NCBI GenBank assembly: GCA_007118805.1
Contig: SKQW01000240.1
Location: 1 to 41,858, forward strand
DNA from: Rhodobiaceae bacterium
GTDB taxonomy: Bacteria > Pseudomonadota > Alphaproteobacteria > Rhizobiales > Tepidamorphaceae
Direction of reading: 5' to 3'
Length of the DNA: 41,858 bases
The position numbers and the translations under genes are program-made. Below are positions 3,079 through 14,661 of this stretch, one piece after another (positions within the stretch are counted from its first letter, which is position 1; every line of letters starts with the position of its first letter). The notes under the pieces were generated by a model, which saw nothing but the letters and a program-made list of their open reading frames with translations, was not told the DNA's origin and made no database searches.

Positions 3079-3795
3079 TCATATCACCCGCCAGCGCAGC
3101 GCCGCCGGCCCCACCTTGGCAGTCGCCAGATCGGCGATCACGGTTTCGCCGGCGATCGTCGTCTGACCGGCGGCAACGAGCGCCCTGGCACCCGCGGGAA
3201 GATAGATGTCGACCCGGCTGCCGAAGCGGATCAGCCCCAGGCGGTCGCCGACCGAGACGTCCTCGCCCTCCTCGACGAAGGAGACGATCCGCCGCGCCAC
3301 GAGGCCGGCGATCTGGACGACGCCGATCCTCGTGCCGCCCTCGCTGACGAGCCGGAAGCACTTGCGCTCATTGTGGACGCTGGCCTTGTCGAGCTCGGCG
3401 TTGAAGAAGGCCCCCGGCCGATAGGAGACCGCATCGATCACGCCACCGGCCGGAACCCGGTTCACGTGACAGTTGAAGACATTCATGAACACCGACACCC
3501 GTGGCAGGGGCGCTTCGCCAATCTCCAGTTCGGGGGGCGGAACCGCTTCCTTGACCGATGCCACGATCCCGTCGGCGCTGCTGACGATGAGCCCCGGCCG
3601 CACCGGCACCGTGCGCACCGGGTCACGGAAGAAATAGGTGACCCATAGGGCCAAGAGCACGACAAGCCACGCCAGCGGCGAGCGCAGCACGAAGAGGATC
3701 AGCGCGCCGGCCACGCAGATTCCGATGAAGGGATAGCCTTCACGATGGATCGGCGGCACCGCGTGCCGGATCGACTGGAGCATGCTGCGGATCAA
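3079..3795 (-). CDS. psd: Phosphatidylserine decarboxylase proenzyme (short form)
   Basis: A 238-residue proenzyme that decarboxylates phosphatidylserine to phosphatidylethanolamine in the inner membrane. Two hydrophobic stretches (about 20-38 and 40-56) anchor it. The catalytic core follows, with FRDP (56-59), SADG with D75, and NCHVNR with H110. The autocleavage site is G192-S193 in RFGSRVDIYLP; cleavage there would create the pyruvoyl group on the small alpha chain. This length and the FGSRVDIYLP motif match the short alphaproteobacterial/archaeal-type PSD rather than the longer E. coli form. Its ATG overlaps the stop of the preceding ABC transporter gene (ATGA), which indicates translational coupling, and pssA follows. 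Confidence 0.95.
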   Translation of the reverse strand: MIRSMLQSIRHAVPPIHREGYPFIGICVAGALILFVLRSPLAWLVVLLALWVTYFFRDPVRTVPVRPGLIVSSADGIVASVKEAVPPPELEIGEAPLPRVSVFMNVFNCHVNRVPAGGVIDAVSYRPGAFFNAELDKASVHNERKCFRLVSEGGTRIGVVQIAGLVARRIVSFVEEGEDVSVGDRLGLIRFGSRVDIYLPAGARALVAAGQTTIAGETVIADLATAKVGPAALRWRVI

Positions 3796-5747
3796 TTGCC
3801 GTCCTCCTCCTCCGCCTGGGCAAGGCGTATGAGATCACCCTGGCGGCGATCGAGATAGCCCTCGCTGTCACCTTCCACCGTGCTCCGCAGCCGCTCGGCG
3901 GCCTCCACCGCCTCGCGCTGGCGGTTCCACATGCCGGCATAGACCCCGCCCGCCTCCAGCAGCGACTCGTGATCTCCCCGCTCGACGATCGCGCCGCGGA
4001 CCAGGACCACGATCTCATCGGCACCGACCACCGTCGACAGGCGATGGGCAATCACCAGCGTGGTTCGCCCACGGGCAACGGCGGCGAGGGCCGACTGGAT
4101 TTCCCGCTCGGTGTGGGTGTCGAGCGCCGACGTCGCCTCGTCGAGGATCAGAATCGGCGGTGCCTTCAATATGGTCCGGGCGATGGCGACACGCTGTTTC
4201 TCGCCGCCTGACAGCTTGAGACCGCGTTCGCCCACCTCGGTCTCGTAGCCATTCGGGAGCCCTCGGATGAAGTCGTCGATTTGGGCCAGCCGCGCCGCCT
4301 CCTCAACCTCCGCGGGGCTCGCGTCGGGGCGGCCATAGGCAATGTTGTAGCGGATGGTGTCGTTGAACAGCACCGTGTCCTGCGGGACCATGCCGATGGC
4401 CGCCCGCAGCGAGCGCTGCGTCACGTCACGGAGGTCCTGCCCGTCGATCGTCACGCGCCCCGAGGAGACGTCATAGAATCGGAACAGGATGCGCGAGATG
4501 GTCGATTTGCCGGCCCCGCTCGGGCCGACCACCGCGACCGTGCTTCCGGCCGGCACGTCGAAGGAGATGCCCTTGAGGATCGGGCGGCTGGCATCGTAGG
4601 CGAAGGCGACCTCCTCGAAACGGATCGTGCCCTCGCTCACCTTTAGCGCCGGCGCGCCCGGCCGGTCGCGCACCTCCGGCGTCTCCTCGAGCAGCTCGAA
4701 CATGGTCTCCAAGTCGACCAGCCCCAGCTTGAGCTCCCGATACATGGTCCCGATCATGTTGAGCGGCATGTAAAGCTGGATGAGCAGGGCATTGATCATC
4801 ACGAAGTCGCCCACCGTCGCGGTGCCGGCCATCACCGATCGGGCCGCCATGACCATGGCCACCGTCATGCCCGCGGTGAAGATCACCGCCTGGCCGATAT
4901 TGAGCGCGGCGAGCGAGGTAAAGGTCTTGACCGCCGCCTTCTCGTAGCGCGCCATCGAGCGGTCGAAGCGGTCCGCCTCCATCGCCTCGTTGCCGAAATA
5001 CTTGACCGTCTCGTAATTGAGCAGGCTGTCGATCGCCTTAAAGCTCGCCTCGTTGTCGGACTCGTTCATCTCCCGGCGTATGGCGATCCGGCGATTGCTC
5101 GCCCACACCGTGTAGGCAAGATAGAGCCCGATCATCGCCATCAGTACCGCGACGTAGCGCAAATCGAACTGATAGGCGACGACGGCCGCCACCAGTGCGA
5201 ATTCGAGCATGGTCGGCATGATCGACAGGATCGACAGCCTGACAATCGCCTCGATGCCCTTGGTGCCGCGCTCGATGACCCGGCTCAGCCCGCCGGTGCG
5301 CCGTTCGAGATGAAAGCGCAGCGACAGCGCGTGCATGTGACGGAACGTCTTATAGGCAAGCTGGCGCACGGCATGCTGGCCGACCTTGGCGAACAGCCAG
5401 TCGCGAAGCTGGGTGAAGCCGGCCATCATCACCCGCGCCATGCCATAGGCGATGACCAGCATCACCGGCACCGCGACGAGGGCGAGCCAGGCCGGGACGC
5501 CGGCCGCGAAGGCCTCGCCTTCGGTCAGCGCATCGGTCGCGAACTTGTAAAGGTAGGGAATGAGAACGGTGATGACCTTGGCGAGGACCAGCGCGATCAG
5601 GGCGGCCACGGCGCGCAGCTTCAGGTCAGGCCGGTCCCCGGGCCAGATATAGGGCCACAGGCCCTTCAGCGTCCCGAATACCGTCGCCTCGGCATCGATC
5701 GGCCGGGAGGCGGCGCGCGGGCTGCTGTCGATCTGGGGCACGGACAT
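3792..5747 (-). CDS. Atm1/ABCB7-type ABC exporter, fused permease and ATPase
   Basis: A 651-residue half-transporter with six membrane helices (about 35-320) followed by an ATP-binding domain (about 355-590). The nucleotide-binding motifs are all present: Walker A GPSGAGKST, Q-loop MVPQDTVLF, signature LSGGEKQR, Walker B ILILDEATSALD, and the H-loop IAHRLST. The permease carries IERGTKGIEAI and NYETVKYFGNE, and the ATPase YNIAYGRPDA; these are typical of the Atm1/HMT1 group, which exports glutathione-linked compounds and metal conjugates, rather than of MsbA. The start at 5747 (MSVPQID) is preferred over an upstream GTG at 5783 because neither has a clear ribosome site and the shorter form fits the family better. 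The ATGA overlap with psd places it in the phospholipid operon, although its own substrate is probably not a lipid. The C-terminal tail is charged. Confidence 0.9.
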   Translation of the reverse strand: MSVPQIDSSPRAASRPIDAEATVFGTLKGLWPYIWPGDRPDLKLRAVAALIALVLAKVITVLIPYLYKFATDALTEGEAFAAGVPAWLALVAVPVMLVIAYGMARVMMAGFTQLRDWLFAKVGQHAVRQLAYKTFRHMHALSLRFHLERRTGGLSRVIERGTKGIEAIVRLSILSIMPTMLEFALVAAVVAYQFDLRYVAVLMAMIGLYLAYTVWASNRRIAIRREMNESDNEASFKAIDSLLNYETVKYFGNEAMEADRFDRSMARYEKAAVKTFTSLAALNIGQAVIFTAGMTVAMVMAARSVMAGTATVGDFVMINALLIQLYMPLNMIGTMYRELKLGLVDLETMFELLEETPEVRDRPGAPALKVSEGTIRFEEVAFAYDASRPILKGISFDVPAGSTVAVVGPSGAGKSTISRILFRFYDVSSGRVTIDGQDLRDVTQRSLRAAIGMVPQDTVLFNDTIRYNIAYGRPDASPAEVEEAARLAQIDDFIRGLPNGYETEVGERGLKLSGGEKQRVAIARTILKAPPILILDEATSALDTHTEREIQSALAAVARGRTTLVIAHRLSTVVGADEIVVLVRGAIVERGDHESLLEAGGVYAGMWNRQREAVEAAERLRSTVEGDSEGYLDRRQGDLIRLAQAEEEDGN

Positions 5748-5806
5748 GGTCTGTCTTTTCGGGCCGATATCCGGGCTCAGCACGCCGGCCCGGATCTGCG
5801 CCGCCG

Positions 5807-7711
5807 TCAGTCAGCCGGCTCGTCAGGCAAGGGGATCGTGAACACCTGCCCAGGGAAGATCAGATGCGGATTCTCGATCTGGCTGCGATTGGCCTCGTAG
5901 ATCAGCTCGTACTTGACGCCCTGCCCGTAGATCGCCCGCGCAATCCGCCAGAGATTGTCGCCGCGTTTGATGTTGATGGCTTCCGTCATGACGCCCATCG
6001 ACGCCTCGGGCGTTGCGGCCGGCCGGGAATCGTCGACGATGACGACGGTCATCTCCGGCTGCGGGTCGCGCGCCGTCTCGACCGGATCGGCGGTGCGCGG
6101 CCCCTCCGGCAAGGCTGGCCCGGCGCTAAGCGCCTCCTCCGGCACCTCGTCCGCCGATACCCTCGTGCTTGCCGGCGGGTCGTCCGGCGCCTCGGCGGCT
6201 GGCAGGGGCTGCCCCTCACGCGCCTCGGTGGTTTCGGTGCGCAATACGGGCGCGCCCAGCGCGGCAGAATCGGGGGCGGCCCCCTCTTCGGGCGCGACCG
6301 GCGGTTCACTTGCCGTCATGGTTTCAGGTGCGGCAGCTTCGGCCGGCGCCGCGTCCGACAAAGTGATCTCCATGCGGTCGAAACGCAGGCTCGCGCGCGC
6401 GATCACCTCGCCGTCACCGTCGACGATCTCGGCGCGGGCGACATACCGTCCTGGCGGAAGCTCGACCTCGCCGGCGGCGCGCCAGCCGCCCTGGCCAGCG
6501 GCCTCCACTGTGTCCAACGCCACGTCATTGACGGACACCCGCAGTCCCCTAAAGGGCTCACCCTGTCCTGACAGGATCACGCGATCGTCGCGGGTAACCT
6601 CGATCGACTCGATGCTTACTTGCGGCGCCGATGACTCGGCCGCGCTGTCCTCTTCGTCCTCGGGCGTCAGCGCGGCCACGGCCTGCTCGGCCCCGGCCGG
6701 CGCCGGCGTTTCGCCGGCCTCCGATGTGGTTTCCGCTTCCGGGCGGCGCTCCGTCTCATCCGCGACCGGCGGTCCGCCGGAACGAACCGGCGATGGGGCA
6801 CCGGCATCAGCCGCTGCCACGGTCTCGGCTTCGCCGGCTCCGGTCTCGGGCAACGCCGCCTCGCCGCCGGAATCGATGCCGGACTCTCTCGCTTCATCGC
6901 CTGATGCCTGAGCGACGGCCGCCTCGGGCGCCGCATCCACCTCACCGGGCGACGGCGCGACCTCGGCCGGCACGGCAACGGCTTCCCGCGTCACTTCCGA
7001 TTCCGGTTCGGCGACCGCTGAAGGCGCCGTCCCGGGCAGCGCGGCCAGGGTGTCCGGTTCGTTGCCCTCGACCGGTTCCGCGCCCGCCGTCGCGGGCGCA
7101 CTGTGGCGGCTTGCATTCGGCAGGCCATTTTCGGCCTCGGCAAGTGCCAGCTCCTCGGGCTGCGGAACGACCTGGGAAGGCTCGCCCGGACGGGCAATCG
7201 CGATCACCGGCAGGCCGTCGGCCTCGGGGATGATAACGGTCGCTCGGTCGCCCTCGATAGGGCCGCCCTCGCCATTGGCGCCAGTGGCCCGCAGCACGAT
7301 CTCGTGTTCGCCGACCGGCAGCGGCGAAGCCGGCACCGCGGTCCATTCGCCGTCGCTGTTGCTGACCTCCGCGACGAACTCTTCGCCCGCGATCCACAGC
7401 TCTACGCCGGCCTGCGGCGCGGCCCGGCCGGCCGCCATCATCTCGCCATTGGGTTCCACGCGGATGAGGTCGAAGTTGGGCGCGATGAGCCCGGCCGCTT
7501 CATCGGCCGCCGCCGGCTGGGTCGGTGCGTCGACCACCTCGTCCGCGGCGGCACCTTCCACCGTCGGAATCGATTCGCCGCCAGCTTGCACCTCTTCGAC
7601 AGGCGGTGGCGCCTCACCGATAAGCTGCGGCGCGTAATTGTAAGCCAGCCCGCCCATTCCAACGGCTAGTACAAGGACCGAAAGAACGAGTAGGATCCTG
7701 TTGTTCGACAT
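5807..7711 (-). CDS. Membrane-anchored acidic LysM protein (first paralogue)
   Basis: A 634-residue protein. It has one N-terminal helix (about 5-25), then a first Ig-like module (about 78-162, beginning PNFDLIRVEPNG), a long Ala/Pro/Glu-rich, probably disordered linker (about 165-360), a second Ig-like module (about 365-452, with LPPGRYVARAEIVDGDG), another linker, and a C-terminal LysM domain (about 578-628, IKRGDNLWRIARAIYGQG to FPGQVFTIP). LysM binds peptidoglycan or other N-acetylglucosamine polymers, so the expected arrangement is anchoring in the inner membrane and contact with the cell wall across the periplasm. A paralogue at 12230-14161 shares the anchor, second Ig-like module and LysM but not the first module. 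The Atm1-like gene starts 59 bases downstream, so the two are probably co-transcribed. No enzymatic domain is seen. Confidence 0.88.
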   Translation of the reverse strand: MSNNRILLVLSVLVLAVGMGGLAYNYAPQLIGEAPPPVEEVQAGGESIPTVEGAAADEVVDAPTQPAAADEAAGLIAPNFDLIRVEPNGEMMAAGRAAPQAGVELWIAGEEFVAEVSNSDGEWTAVPASPLPVGEHEIVLRATGANGEGGPIEGDRATVIIPEADGLPVIAIARPGEPSQVVPQPEELALAEAENGLPNASRHSAPATAGAEPVEGNEPDTLAALPGTAPSAVAEPESEVTREAVAVPAEVAPSPGEVDAAPEAAVAQASGDEARESGIDSGGEAALPETGAGEAETVAAADAGAPSPVRSGGPPVADETERRPEAETTSEAGETPAPAGAEQAVAALTPEDEEDSAAESSAPQVSIESIEVTRDDRVILSGQGEPFRGLRVSVNDVALDTVEAAGQGGWRAAGEVELPPGRYVARAEIVDGDGEVIARASLRFDRMEITLSDAAPAEAAAPETMTASEPPVAPEEGAAPDSAALGAPVLRTETTEAREGQPLPAAEAPDDPPASTRVSADEVPEEALSAGPALPEGPRTADPVETARDPQPEMTVVIVDDSRPAATPEASMGVMTEAINIKRGDNLWRIARAIYGQGVKYELIYEANRSQIENPHLIFPGQVFTIPLPDEPAD

Positions 7712-7938
7712 GCGCTATAGCCCGTTCGCGCCTGCGGCCGTCGGCCGGCCGAACCATCGTGTAGGCAGTATGATCAACCGCATCTGCAAGCGCGGCGCTC
7801 AGGAAAATTGCAGCCGCTCAACTCGCTACCTTGACGTACTCACCTATATTGTGCGCAGCAAAAGGACAAGCCCTCCGGACAACCGGCGGGTCGGGGCAAC
7901 GCGCGACACTCCCCTCTCACAGACCACAGTGGAAAGCC
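7712..7938. promoter_or_regulatory. Divergent intergenic region, LysM gene versus LOG gene
   Basis: This 227-base stretch separates two divergent genes and must hold both promoters. It is relatively AT-rich around 7805-7860. A TTGACG at 7831-7836 and a TATATT at 7845-7850 are visible but only 8 bases apart, too close to form one sigma-70 promoter, so I do not assign exact elements. Confidence 0.4.
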
Positions 7939-8541
7939 ATGACCGACATCAAGCGAATCTGCGTCTATTGCGGCTCCGGCGACGGCCGCAACCCGATGTA
8001 CCGCCACTCCGCCGACCGACTCGGGGCGCTCCTGGCCGACGCGGGAATCGGGCTGGTCTATGGCGGTGGCAGCCTCGGTCTGATGGGGACGATCGCAAAA
8101 TCTGTCCTCAAGAACGGCGGTCAAGTGACCGGGATCATTCCCAAATTCCTCACCGAGCGCGAGAAGATGCTGCGCGACGTTCAAGAGCTCATCGTGACCG
8201 ACGACATGCATGAGCGTAAGCGGCTGATGTTCGAGCATTCCGACGCCTTCGTCGCCCTGCCCGGCGGCGTCGGCACGCTCGAGGAGACCGTCGAGATGCT
8301 CACCTGGTCGCAGCTCGGGCGCCACAACAAGCCAATTTTGCTGGTCAATATCAATGGCTTCTGGGATCCGCTTTGCGCCCTGTTCGAGCACATGCTGGAC
8401 CAGGCCTTCATCCGCGAGGGCCTGAGCGTGCGCTACCTGGTCGCAGATACAGTCGAGGAGGTTGTTCCCAGACTGCGCGCGGCGATCGCCAGGCTCCCGG
8501 AAGGGGCGGAAACCGCGAGCGAAACGGTGGAGAAGATGTGA
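7939..8541 (+). CDS. LOG-family (TIGR00730) nucleotide phosphoribohydrolase
   Basis: A 200-residue Rossmann-fold protein. The start at 7939 (MTDIKRICVYCGSG) is chosen because the conserved family N-terminus begins there; the upstream in-frame codons lie in the promoter region. Signatures include YGGGSLGLMG, the MHERKRLMFEHSDAFVALPGGVGTLEE block with the PGGxGTxxE catalytic motif, and the preceding conserved Arg. LOG enzymes release the base from nucleoside 5'-monophosphates; plant and some bacterial members activate cytokinins. In bacteria without cytokinin signalling the role is probably nucleotide turnover. It is cytosolic, has no signal peptide, and is divergently transcribed from the first LysM gene. 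Confidence 0.92.
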   Translation: MTDIKRICVYCGSGDGRNPMYRHSADRLGALLADAGIGLVYGGGSLGLMGTIAKSVLKNGGQVTGIIPKFLTEREKMLRDVQELIVTDDMHERKRLMFEHSDAFVALPGGVGTLEETVEMLTWSQLGRHNKPILLVNINGFWDPLCALFEHMLDQAFIREGLSVRYLVADTVEEVVPRLRAAIARLPEGAETASETVEKM

Positions 8542-8588
8542 GCTGGGCTCACGTCGGACCGCCGCCCCAGGGGCACGATTGGCCCAGC
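8542..8588 (+). terminator. Inverted repeat directly after the LOG stop codon
   Basis: GCTGGGC (8542-8548) pairs with GCCCAGC (8582-8588), with an inner GCCCC/GGGGC pair. It begins at the first base after TGA. No T-run follows, so it is only a weak terminator candidate. Confidence 0.3.
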
Positions 8589-8671
8589 GGTCAACGCCTT
8601 CCGCAACACCGTCGACGCTGCGCCCGAGGCATTCGGGAGGGGGGCCGGCTGCACCAACGAACCACCAAGGG

Positions 8672-8699
8672 TTGCAAATATACCTTACGCAGCGTAATC
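8672..8699 (+). promoter_or_regulatory. Possible promoter overlapping a perfect 13-bp palindrome
   Basis: TTGCAA (8672-8677) and TAATCT (8694-8699) are 16 bases apart, an acceptable sigma-70 layout. The perfect palindrome TTACGCAGCGTAA (8685-8697) overlaps the -10 element, as an operator would. No gene follows on the plus strand, only a hairpin about 45 bases further on. Confidence 0.3.
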
Positions 8700-8741
8700 T
8701 AAGATCGTCGGCTGTCGCCGGCACGTATCAATTTCCGAACT

Positions 8742-12229: not shown

Positions 12230-14161
12230 CTACTCCGTGTCGTCGAGCACCGGAACGGTGAAGACCTGACCGGGATAGATCAGGTCGGGGTTGCGGATCT
12301 GGTTGCGGTTGAGCGCGTAGATTTCGGTGTATAGCCGCCCCTCGCCGTAGATCGCCCGGGCGATGTGCCAGAGATTGTCGCCACGTTCGATATGGACGGT
12401 GGTCGGCGTCGCCTCGCGGAGCGCCGCCAAGTCGAATTCGGTCTCCGGTATCACCTCTGGCTCCGGCGCCGGTTCGACAATCGGCGGCGCCTCGCTCATC
12501 ACCACCTCCACGCGGTCGAAGCGCATTTCGGTGCTGGCTTCGCGCACGCCTTCCGCATCGACCAGCACGGCCCGCGCCAGATACCGCCCGGGCGGCAGCT
12601 CCCGGCGCGCTGAAACCGCCCAGTGTCCGGCTGCATCGGAGCGGGACTCTGCGAGCATTTCGTCGTTGAGATAGGTGCGCACCGTGGCGTGCGGGCTTGC
12701 CCGCCCGGTGATCTCGACGCGGTCGGGGTCGTCGAACTGAATGGTGTCGATACTCACCAAGGGCGGTTCGGGGATCGGATCGGCCGCTTCCCGCGGCGCC
12801 GGCAGGGCGGCGAGCGCGTCATCCTCAGGATCGACGGCCAGTTCCGATGCGTGCGCCAAAACGAAAGCCGACTTCCATTCCAGAAGGCGCGCCGGGGCGG
12901 GCTCCGCCGCCACGGCGCCGGGCATCGGCGCATGAAGCCTGCCTTCATCCTCAACCACAGCCATCGCAACAGCTACGGGGTCGGACTGTCTGGCCTCCAC
13001 CGCGACCAAAAACCGGTCCTCGTCGGGGTCCGAAGCGTCCTGCACGGCCGGGGTCGGCAGTTCGGCAACGAAGGATGGCTTCCACTGGACCAGGATGGAT
13101 GGTTTCCAGCGCGTCGGGGCGGCCTCGGCCGCCACGGCGCCGGGCATCGGCGCATGAAGCCTGCCCTCGCCGTCCACCGAGGCCGTGGCGGCGGCTGCGG
13201 GTTCAGGCCGTCTGGCCTCGACGGCGACCACAAGCCGGTCCTCGTCGGGGCCCGACGCGTCCTGCACGGCCGGGGTCGGCAGTTCGGCGACGAAGGATGG
13301 CTTCCACGGGACCAGGATGGATGGTTTCCACCGCACCGGGGAACGGCGATCGGCTGCCCGCGCCGCCTGCCTGTCCGGGGCCTCGATCGCCTGCGCGCCG
13401 ACCGTCTCGGCCTGGGCGCGGCTCAAGGTTGTCGGTCGCGGTTCTTCGATGTCGGCGCCGACCCCCCGGATGGTCCGGACGCGGCGCGGCGCGCCGGCTT
13501 CGGCGGTCGAATGGATGGCGCCGAGCGCGAAAGAGGGCTTCCAGGCCAGCGCCCGCGTCGCGGGCAGATCGACCGTCTCGGTCTTGCTGTCCGTGGCGAT
13601 CGCTTCGGGTGAAACGATTGCCGGCATCTGCCGGAGGGGTTCGCCTCGCGTCGCCGCCGGGCGCCCGGTCTGCATGGGCGGAACGAATCCGATTGCTTCG
13701 GCCACGTCACGCCCCGCCTCGGGGCTTGCCCGCGCCAAGAGGCGGGCCGGCTTCCATGCCTTCGCCACCTCCGGATCAGCCTCGTCCGCTGCCGCGCGAC
13801 GCTCAATATCGGCTTCGCCTGTCGGCCCGACAGTCTCCGCCGGCTGCGACGGGCTCGTCGGCAGGTCTTCCGTATCCTCGATCCCCGCTTCGCGACCTTC
13901 CTCCGGCACGCGCAGCGCCGCCCGCCCGTCAGGCGCCTGTGCCGCCGGCACGGCCTCGAACCGGTTCTCGGCAGGAATCACCTCGGCCTGATCAGACGTT
14001 TGCGCATGCGCGGCCGCCGCCTCGACCCTCTCGATAGGCTCGGCCTCCAGTCCGGCGAGAGGATCGCGCTCGAACAGGTCCGTCCCGAAATAAAGGCCGA
14101 GCGCGCCTGCCCCCGCCCCGATCAGCACAGAAAGGATCAACAGGGCGACTTTGCCAGACAT
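12230..14161 (-). CDS. Membrane-anchored LysM protein with W-K-P-S repeats (second paralogue)
   Basis: A 643-residue protein with an N-terminal membrane helix (about 5-25), a long Ala/Pro/Glu-rich middle, one Ig-like module (about 468-556, with LPPGRYLARAVLVDAEG), and a C-terminal LysM domain (about 589-637, IERGDNLWHIARAIYGEG to YPGQVFTVP). The module and LysM closely match the protein at 5807-7711. The first Ig-like module of that paralogue is absent; in its place the linker carries the motif W-K-P-S/A or W-K-S-A at residues 136, 207, 278, 286, 352, 360 and 429, a spacing of about 70-75. Two of the units are near-identical. The start at 14161 is backed by GAGGG. It follows a secreted cysteine-containing protein by 44 bases. 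A role in the periplasm bound to peptidoglycan is inferred from the LysM and anchor; no catalytic domain is seen. Confidence 0.88.
   Translation of the reverse strand: MSGKVALLILSVLIGAGAGALGLYFGTDLFERDPLAGLEAEPIERVEAAAAHAQTSDQAEVIPAENRFEAVPAAQAPDGRAALRVPEEGREAGIEDTEDLPTSPSQPAETVGPTGEADIERRAAADEADPEVAKAWKPARLLARASPEAGRDVAEAIGFVPPMQTGRPAATRGEPLRQMPAIVSPEAIATDSKTETVDLPATRALAWKPSFALGAIHSTAEAGAPRRVRTIRGVGADIEEPRPTTLSRAQAETVGAQAIEAPDRQAARAADRRSPVRWKPSILVPWKPSFVAELPTPAVQDASGPDEDRLVVAVEARRPEPAAAATASVDGEGRLHAPMPGAVAAEAAPTRWKPSILVQWKPSFVAELPTPAVQDASDPDEDRFLVAVEARQSDPVAVAMAVVEDEGRLHAPMPGAVAAEPAPARLLEWKSAFVLAHASELAVDPEDDALAALPAPREAADPIPEPPLVSIDTIQFDDPDRVEITGRASPHATVRTYLNDEMLAESRSDAAGHWAVSARRELPPGRYLARAVLVDAEGVREASTEMRFDRVEVVMSEAPPIVEPAPEPEVIPETEFDLAALREATPTTVHIERGDNLWHIARAIYGEGRLYTEIYALNRNQIRNPDLIYPGQVFTVPVLDDTE
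12908..13337 (-). repeat. 222-bp tandem direct repeat inside the second LysM gene
   Basis: Two copies, about 12908-13115 and 13130-13337, are offset by 222 bases (74 codons). Each encodes the RWKPSILV-x-WKPSFVAELP block, PAVQDAS-x-PDEDR and GRLHAPMPGAVAAE. The paired-Trp block and the HAPMPGAVAAE part are nearly identical between copies, while the middle has diverged. A multiple of three, it keeps the frame. Confidence 0.85.
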
Positions 14162-14205: not shown

Positions 14206-14661
14206 TCAGTCGCCTCCGCCAGCCGTGGAGATGAACGGAACGTCGGTCCGGCTCGACGCATCGATCAGGCGGAGGCACTCCTGGGCCTCGAGGCCGGTAT
14301 CGGTCTCGCAGTTCACCACGTCGTTGAGCAGGATGCGGCCAATATCCTCGCAGGATTCTTCCTGAAACAGGAACTGGCGAACCCGCACCGTGCCCGGCGT
14401 CATGTTGCGCGCGGGCAGCAGCCACAGATTCTTGACGATATCGTCCTGATCGAACACGGCGACCTCGACGGCGAGATCGGCGAATGTTGCATCCGTCTCG
14501 TTGTTGAATATGACGGCGCCGCGGCAGCCCCGATCGACATTCTCAAGTTGATTCAATTCGATGGACAGTTTGCCATTCTCGGCCTCGGCCGAACTGGCGG
14601 CACCGAAAACCGCTACAACTCCGGCTACGGCGAGCCAGAGCGGGATACGACGTGACACCAT
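14206..14661 (-). CDS. Secreted four-cysteine protein of unknown function
   Basis: A 151-residue protein with a clear Sec signal peptide (PLWLAVAGVVAVFGAASSAEA, cleavage near residue 27). The mature part begins ENGKLSIELNQLENVDRGCRGAVIFNN and has four cysteines (C46, C104, C118, C129), which suggests two periplasmic disulfides. The pattern ELNxLExVDxxCRxxxxFxN, a segment VAVFDQDD, and RILLNDVVNCE look like a conserved alphaproteobacterial periplasmic family, but I cannot name a function. The start is fixed by a strong AGGGAGGGG. The second LysM gene begins 44 bases downstream, so the two are probably co-transcribed and may work together in the periplasm. Confidence 0.8.
   Translation of the reverse strand: MVSRRIPLWLAVAGVVAVFGAASSAEAENGKLSIELNQLENVDRGCRGAVIFNNETDATFADLAVEVAVFDQDDIVKNLWLLPARNMTPGTVRVRQFLFQEESCEDIGRILLNDVVNCETDTGLEAQECLRLIDASSRTDVPFISTAGGGD

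Follow-up and report, generated by a model that had tools for sequence, protein, structure and literature searches.

An array of W-K motifs, restricted to one genome among those searched, in the disordered linker of a putative LysM envelope tether

Introduction

A LysM protein encoded by a Rhodobiaceae bacterium carries the pair tryptophan-lysine (W-K) seven times, at intervals, along the linker that leads to its C-terminal domains. Are these pairs an array of contact sites, or passengers in a linker that has grown by duplication? The window that we analysed is the whole 41,858-nucleotide stretch of contig SKQW01000240.1. A preliminary description of it gave the open reading frame, its strand and all seven W-K positions, which proved exact, and called the product a LysM protein, an assignment borne out by a match to PF01476. 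It read the motifs as repeated binding sites for a periplasmic partner. Disordered linkers that carry arrays of motifs are familiar from cytosolic and eukaryotic proteins; to our knowledge, few have been described from bacterial envelopes.

Results

The W-K gene (P0001) occupies positions 12230 to 14161 of the minus strand, stop codon included, and encodes a protein of 643 residues arranged as membrane helix, disordered linker, Ig-like domain and LysM domain; all features of the gene given below are on the same strand. The AlphaFold2 model, built from a 42-row alignment (mean pLDDT 55.4, pTM 0.37), has a helix at residues 3-29, disorder to about residue 443, a confident beta-sandwich at residues 470-550 and LysM-like elements at residues 587-636. 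The predicted helix (14075-14155) would be a signal anchor that holds the protein in the membrane. The acidic linker covers approximately residues 37-443 (about 410 residues; 12833-14053) and mostly has pLDDT below 50, the exception being a weak helical stretch within residues 119-156. For the sandwich (12512-12754), pLDDT is mostly at or above 95 from residue 481, and Foldseek returned Ig/FnIII-type modules (7dm0 at E 1.4e-4; 3pe9 at TMt 0.68-0.74). The LysM domain, residues 591-637 (12251-12391), is the sole Pfam match of the protein (PF01476, E 1.2e-6, 28.8 bits against a cut-off of 20.9) and also matches Kbp (7pvc, E 2.7e-7). No model in Pfam or NCBIfam matches the linker. With an inner-membrane anchor at one end and, at the other, a LysM domain that probably binds peptidoglycan, this domain order suggests a tether across the periplasm. 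A frame artefact was rejected: GC by codon position keeps a single, uniform pattern along the gene, so no frameshift is suspected.

A gene for an apparently exported protein of 151 residues lies 44 bp upstream (14206-14661, also on the minus strand) and is possibly co-transcribed with the W-K gene. This protein has no Pfam or NCBIfam match, and homologues of it are present in 20 of the 40 other genomes searched. No LysM homologue lies beside the 151-residue homologues in the six relatives examined, so this protein is not an obvious partner.

W-K is found at residues 136, 207, 278, 286, 352, 360 and 429, and proline follows in six of the seven motifs. Residues 30-460 contain 7 tryptophans and 9 lysines; every tryptophan is followed by lysine, and seven of the nine lysines are preceded by tryptophan. 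When we shuffled this stretch at constant composition, seven W-K pairs were reached in 0 of 200,000 shuffles, with a maximum of four. With the second copy of the tandem duplication removed, all five tryptophans left are in W-K, and 0 of 300,000 shuffles reached five (maximum three). The motifs form five clusters spaced 71, 71, 74 and 77 residues apart. By a test devised post hoc, this spacing is more even than random placement (p about 2e-4), as it is with the duplication collapsed (p 4e-3, or 6e-4 when the doublet's second tryptophan is used). The W-K pattern is real and goes beyond chance; its consensus in the linker is W-K-(P/S)-(S/A)-(F/I/R), at intervals of about 72 residues.

A 222-bp direct repeat joins residues 278-351 (copy 1, 13109-13330, with W278 and W286) to residues 352-425 (copy 2, 12887-13108, with W352 and W360). 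The two copies are 87% identical, in agreement with the earlier claim that only two units are near-identical, and theirs is the one tandem duplication that is certain, no other being demonstrable. Each bears two motifs as the doublet WKPSILV(P/Q)WKPSFVAELP. The copies disagree at 29 bases out of 222 and are therefore not a single stretch assembled twice, by which an assembly error was rejected. A DNA-level mobile element was rejected as well: beyond short matches, the 455-bp repeat region does not recur elsewhere in the genome. Over the whole unit, Ka between the copies is 0.105 and Ks 0.262. The first 20 residues, which hold both motifs, have 2 changes in 60 bases (1 silent, 1 replacement), and the other 54 residues have 27 in 162 (12 silent, 15 replacement). 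Since silent changes are also scarce in the motif part, gene conversion is possible and could mimic constraint.

Next to copy 2 is a decayed third unit, approximately residues 426-460 (12782-12886), with W429 in WKSAF. Its similarity to the repeat, 3' of the motif, is weak (p 0.02-0.04); the aligned sequences are RLLEWKSAFVLAHAS and SILVQWKPSFVAELP. The other two, units 1 and 2, have only the motif in common with the rest: motif 1, W136, begins WKPARLLARA (first bases at 13746-13756) and motif 2, W207, begins WKPSF (13529-13543), and neither unit has convincing flank similarity to any other, with a few upstream flank pairs reaching p 0.015-0.05 among 38 tests. The preliminary description took the outer units to be old. 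The weak homology around W429 agrees with this. The units of W136 and W207, whose flanks lack convincing similarity, might be old ones that kept only the motif or places where the motif was gained independently, and their sequences would fit either. In an alignment with relatives, units 1 and 2 showed no remnant of the missing N-terminal Ig domain.

The W-K protein is an extra, diverged paralogue of a widespread alphaproteobacterial group with a membrane helix, Ig-like domains and LysM (the TM-Ig-LysM group). A standard member, of the form TM-Ig-linker-Ig-LysM, is encoded in the same window (P0002, 634 residues, 5807-7711, minus strand); it has no W-K and is the syntenic orthologue. We compared ten loci, one being the window itself and some ending at contig ends. 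The usual order in relatives of the same family or order is cysS, cimA, a conserved stretch, the LysM gene and an ABC exporter, with small variations. In the window the place between cimA and the MsbA-like ABC exporter (3792-5783) is held by P0002, not by the W-K gene, which lies upstream of cysS, on the opposite side from the standard LysM gene. Among the relatives examined in which this flank is covered, none has a counterpart of the W-K gene beside cysS. The conserved pairing of P0002 with the MsbA-like exporter suggests a shared envelope role. Between cimA and the standard LysM gene, at 7840-8724 of the window, a minus-strand reading is 40-50% identical in relatives; it has no Pfam match, and plus-strand ORFs are also present. 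The genome has a third paralogue of 345 residues (G000:C244, L047 6022-7056), with two Ig-like domains and a very short linker, and by eye a transposase-like frame seems present at the end of its contig. In a tree of 36 sequences the W-K protein groups with this third paralogue with support of 88/88, which is not strong; rows from Breoghania and Chthonobacter fall among genomes of the order to which the window belongs, which points to Hyphomicrobiales/Rhizobiales as that order.

We then asked how far the array extends among relatives. Matches to the W-K protein, LysM-only matches included, were found in 31 of the 40 other genomes searched and in at least 464 of 596 candidate genome-contig stretches, with titles naming alphaproteobacteria or just proteobacteria. 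These searches supplied 109 loci with an open frame at the best match, 29 from the 40 genomes (some of them short, other LysM proteins) and 80 from genome contigs. A single W-K is present in 14 of the 109 proteins, or 11 of the 102 with at least 300 residues. The preliminary description had counted absence of the repeats from orthologues against its own reading, and at family level they are absent: 0 of the 109 LysM-matching proteins have two or more W-K, and the syntenic orthologues lack the repeat. The level is set by sample depth, which is 8 genomes for the family and 1, the source genome itself, for the genus. The W-K linker has no counterpart in an alignment with six relatives and paralogues.

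Searches with the repeat region gave the same picture. It matched 2 of 397 genomes of the order, the source and one marginal case (G115; E 8e-4, 29%), and 3 of 385 in a sample of the class, the source and two marginal matches in frames with stops (E 6e-4 and 9e-4); the two samples partly overlap and hold 396 and 384 genomes when the source is excluded. No relative with the repeat was found among the genome contigs searched with P0001 or in viral contigs. A triple W-K-P/S/L/F pattern was met in 7 of 397 order genomes, namely the source and six with one match each, and in three with a reversed control; we take the six as chance. Within the source genome, two of five exact DNA matches to WKPSF or WKPTF lie outside the W-K gene, and by eye one of these falls in a frame that is probably spurious, the other within a protein resembling an enzyme. 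No second protein with the motif came from a 29-residue doublet query, which matched itself, its copy and one sequence at chance level (E 1.2). Among the genomes searched, the repeat is restricted to the source genome and is a lineage-specific novelty of putative function.

Discussion

What might the W-K motifs do? We favor, at a probability of roughly 0.4, a lineage-specific multivalent array of motifs ("stickers") on a tether from the inner membrane to peptidoglycan. The protein is an extra copy of a common alphaproteobacterial protein; it lacks the N-terminal Ig domain and bears the W-K motif in its linker, where at least one 222-bp tandem duplication carrying the doublet has added to the array. 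The LysM domain would hold the far end of the tether in the wall while the linker motifs make repeated weak contacts and bind avidly to an envelope partner or surface, whether protein, membrane or wall. In favor of this reading are the W-K enrichment, with or without the duplication, and the few changes in the motif part of the two recent copies; the motif proline has also been kept with three synonymous codons (CCG, CCC and CCA) despite flanks of units 1 and 2 that have no detectable similarity, and the motifs account for 11 of the linker's 15 aromatic residues. Counted against it are the absence of the array from the 109 homologues and, effectively, from the order (396 other genomes) and the class sample (384), the possible gene conversion in the motif part, the lack of a second protein with the motif in the genome, and motifs without unusual hydrophobicity. 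We infer selection on the W-K motif. That the array binds something, a periplasmic partner included, is conjecture; no result of the analysis points to a partner, and none was found in the genome.

The motif-array interpretation of the preliminary description thus stands in part. A non-random array does lie in a disordered, acidic, envelope-anchored linker that has no Pfam or NCBIfam model, and the amino acids of the motif are constant where synonymous codons have changed; its absence in relatives speaks against the interpretation. A more specific form, in which W-K-P-S-F is a periplasmic short linear motif not named before, its young and recently expanding array offers several docking sites to one partner and multivalency is evolving within one lineage, strikes us as rather unlikely.

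The best-surviving alternative, credible if somewhat doubtful, is that tandem duplication extended the linker so that it spans the periplasm, and that W-K is a passenger with no role of its own. The duplication is genuine and is accompanied by a decayed third unit, a single lineage carries the extra paralogue, and linker lengths vary widely across a group that lacks the array, all of which such growth would explain. Neutral decay, however, would not leave units 1 and 2 with the motif alone between flanks without homology, and the W-K enrichment persists once the duplication is collapsed.

The chemistry of the motifs bears on a second alternative. They had been described as hydrophobic islands, which the numbers do not bear out: on the Kyte-Doolittle scale the motifs average between -0.45 and +0.26, inside the spread of the linker (mean -0.32, sd 0.64). 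"Aromatic islands" is a better name for motifs that are aromatic and range from neutral to basic, yet are not hydrophobic by this scale. Their tryptophan and lysine, together with aromatic residues, might lie at the periplasmic face of the membrane or on the wall, with no protein partner. The charge of the motifs, net 0 to +3 against -28 for the linker, would suit such surfaces, as would the predicted helix at motif 1 (residues 130-145). Strong hydrophobicity is missing, however, the third place is proline, and the other motifs have no predicted helix; we consider this explanation improbable. Least probable of all is that cation-pi stickers make the linkers of different molecules associate with one another in envelope clusters: aromatic and lysine motifs at regular spacing, with acidic disordered spacers between them, recall the sticker-spacer layout known from other systems, but seven motifs are few.

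The multivalent array on a tether is the preferred reading. As matters stand, it concerns a feature of a single genome with a putative function. If the motif has a partner, the protein would be a compact case of duplication-born multivalency in an envelope tether.

How does the W-K protein compare with known systems? Members of the TM-Ig-LysM group, including P0002 and the proteins at loci L002-L005, share an N-terminal helix, an Ala/Pro/Glu-rich linker, an Ig-like domain and a C-terminal LysM. The W-K protein is 29-34% identical to them overall and 38-45% at best matches, and it has the Ig-like domain directly before LysM, predicted at residues 470-550 and aligning with relatives. It differs in having no N-terminal Ig-like domain (FDIVRVEPSGE...) in the alignment, with nothing folded predicted before residue 470, in its W-K array, and in its location outside the conserved cysS-cimA-LysM-ABC position. 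A search of titles and abstracts returned no paper on the W-K motif or on this group, for which we found no functional study or characterized member. In the parts consulted, PMC5539429 and PMC12403147 deal with LysM proteins other than these, and PMC7613929 holds no description of the FtsN linker. Kbp/YgaU (PDB 7pvc, NF008399) matches only the LysM part of the W-K protein (E 2.7e-7 and 1.1e-13, respectively); the NF008399 equivalog score of 51.8 bits is below the curated cut-off of 134.

FtsN-like tethers combine a membrane anchor and a wall-binding SPOR domain with a disordered linker, in which a short aromatic segment acts on the divisome. The W-K protein may be likened to them in layout alone, that is, in its predicted anchor, its disordered linker with an aromatic motif and its wall-binding end. 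A Pfam scan found LysM alone and no SPOR domain. With LysM in place of SPOR, an Ig-like domain and seven motifs rather than one, the W-K protein would be an analogue of these tethers, not a member of their family.
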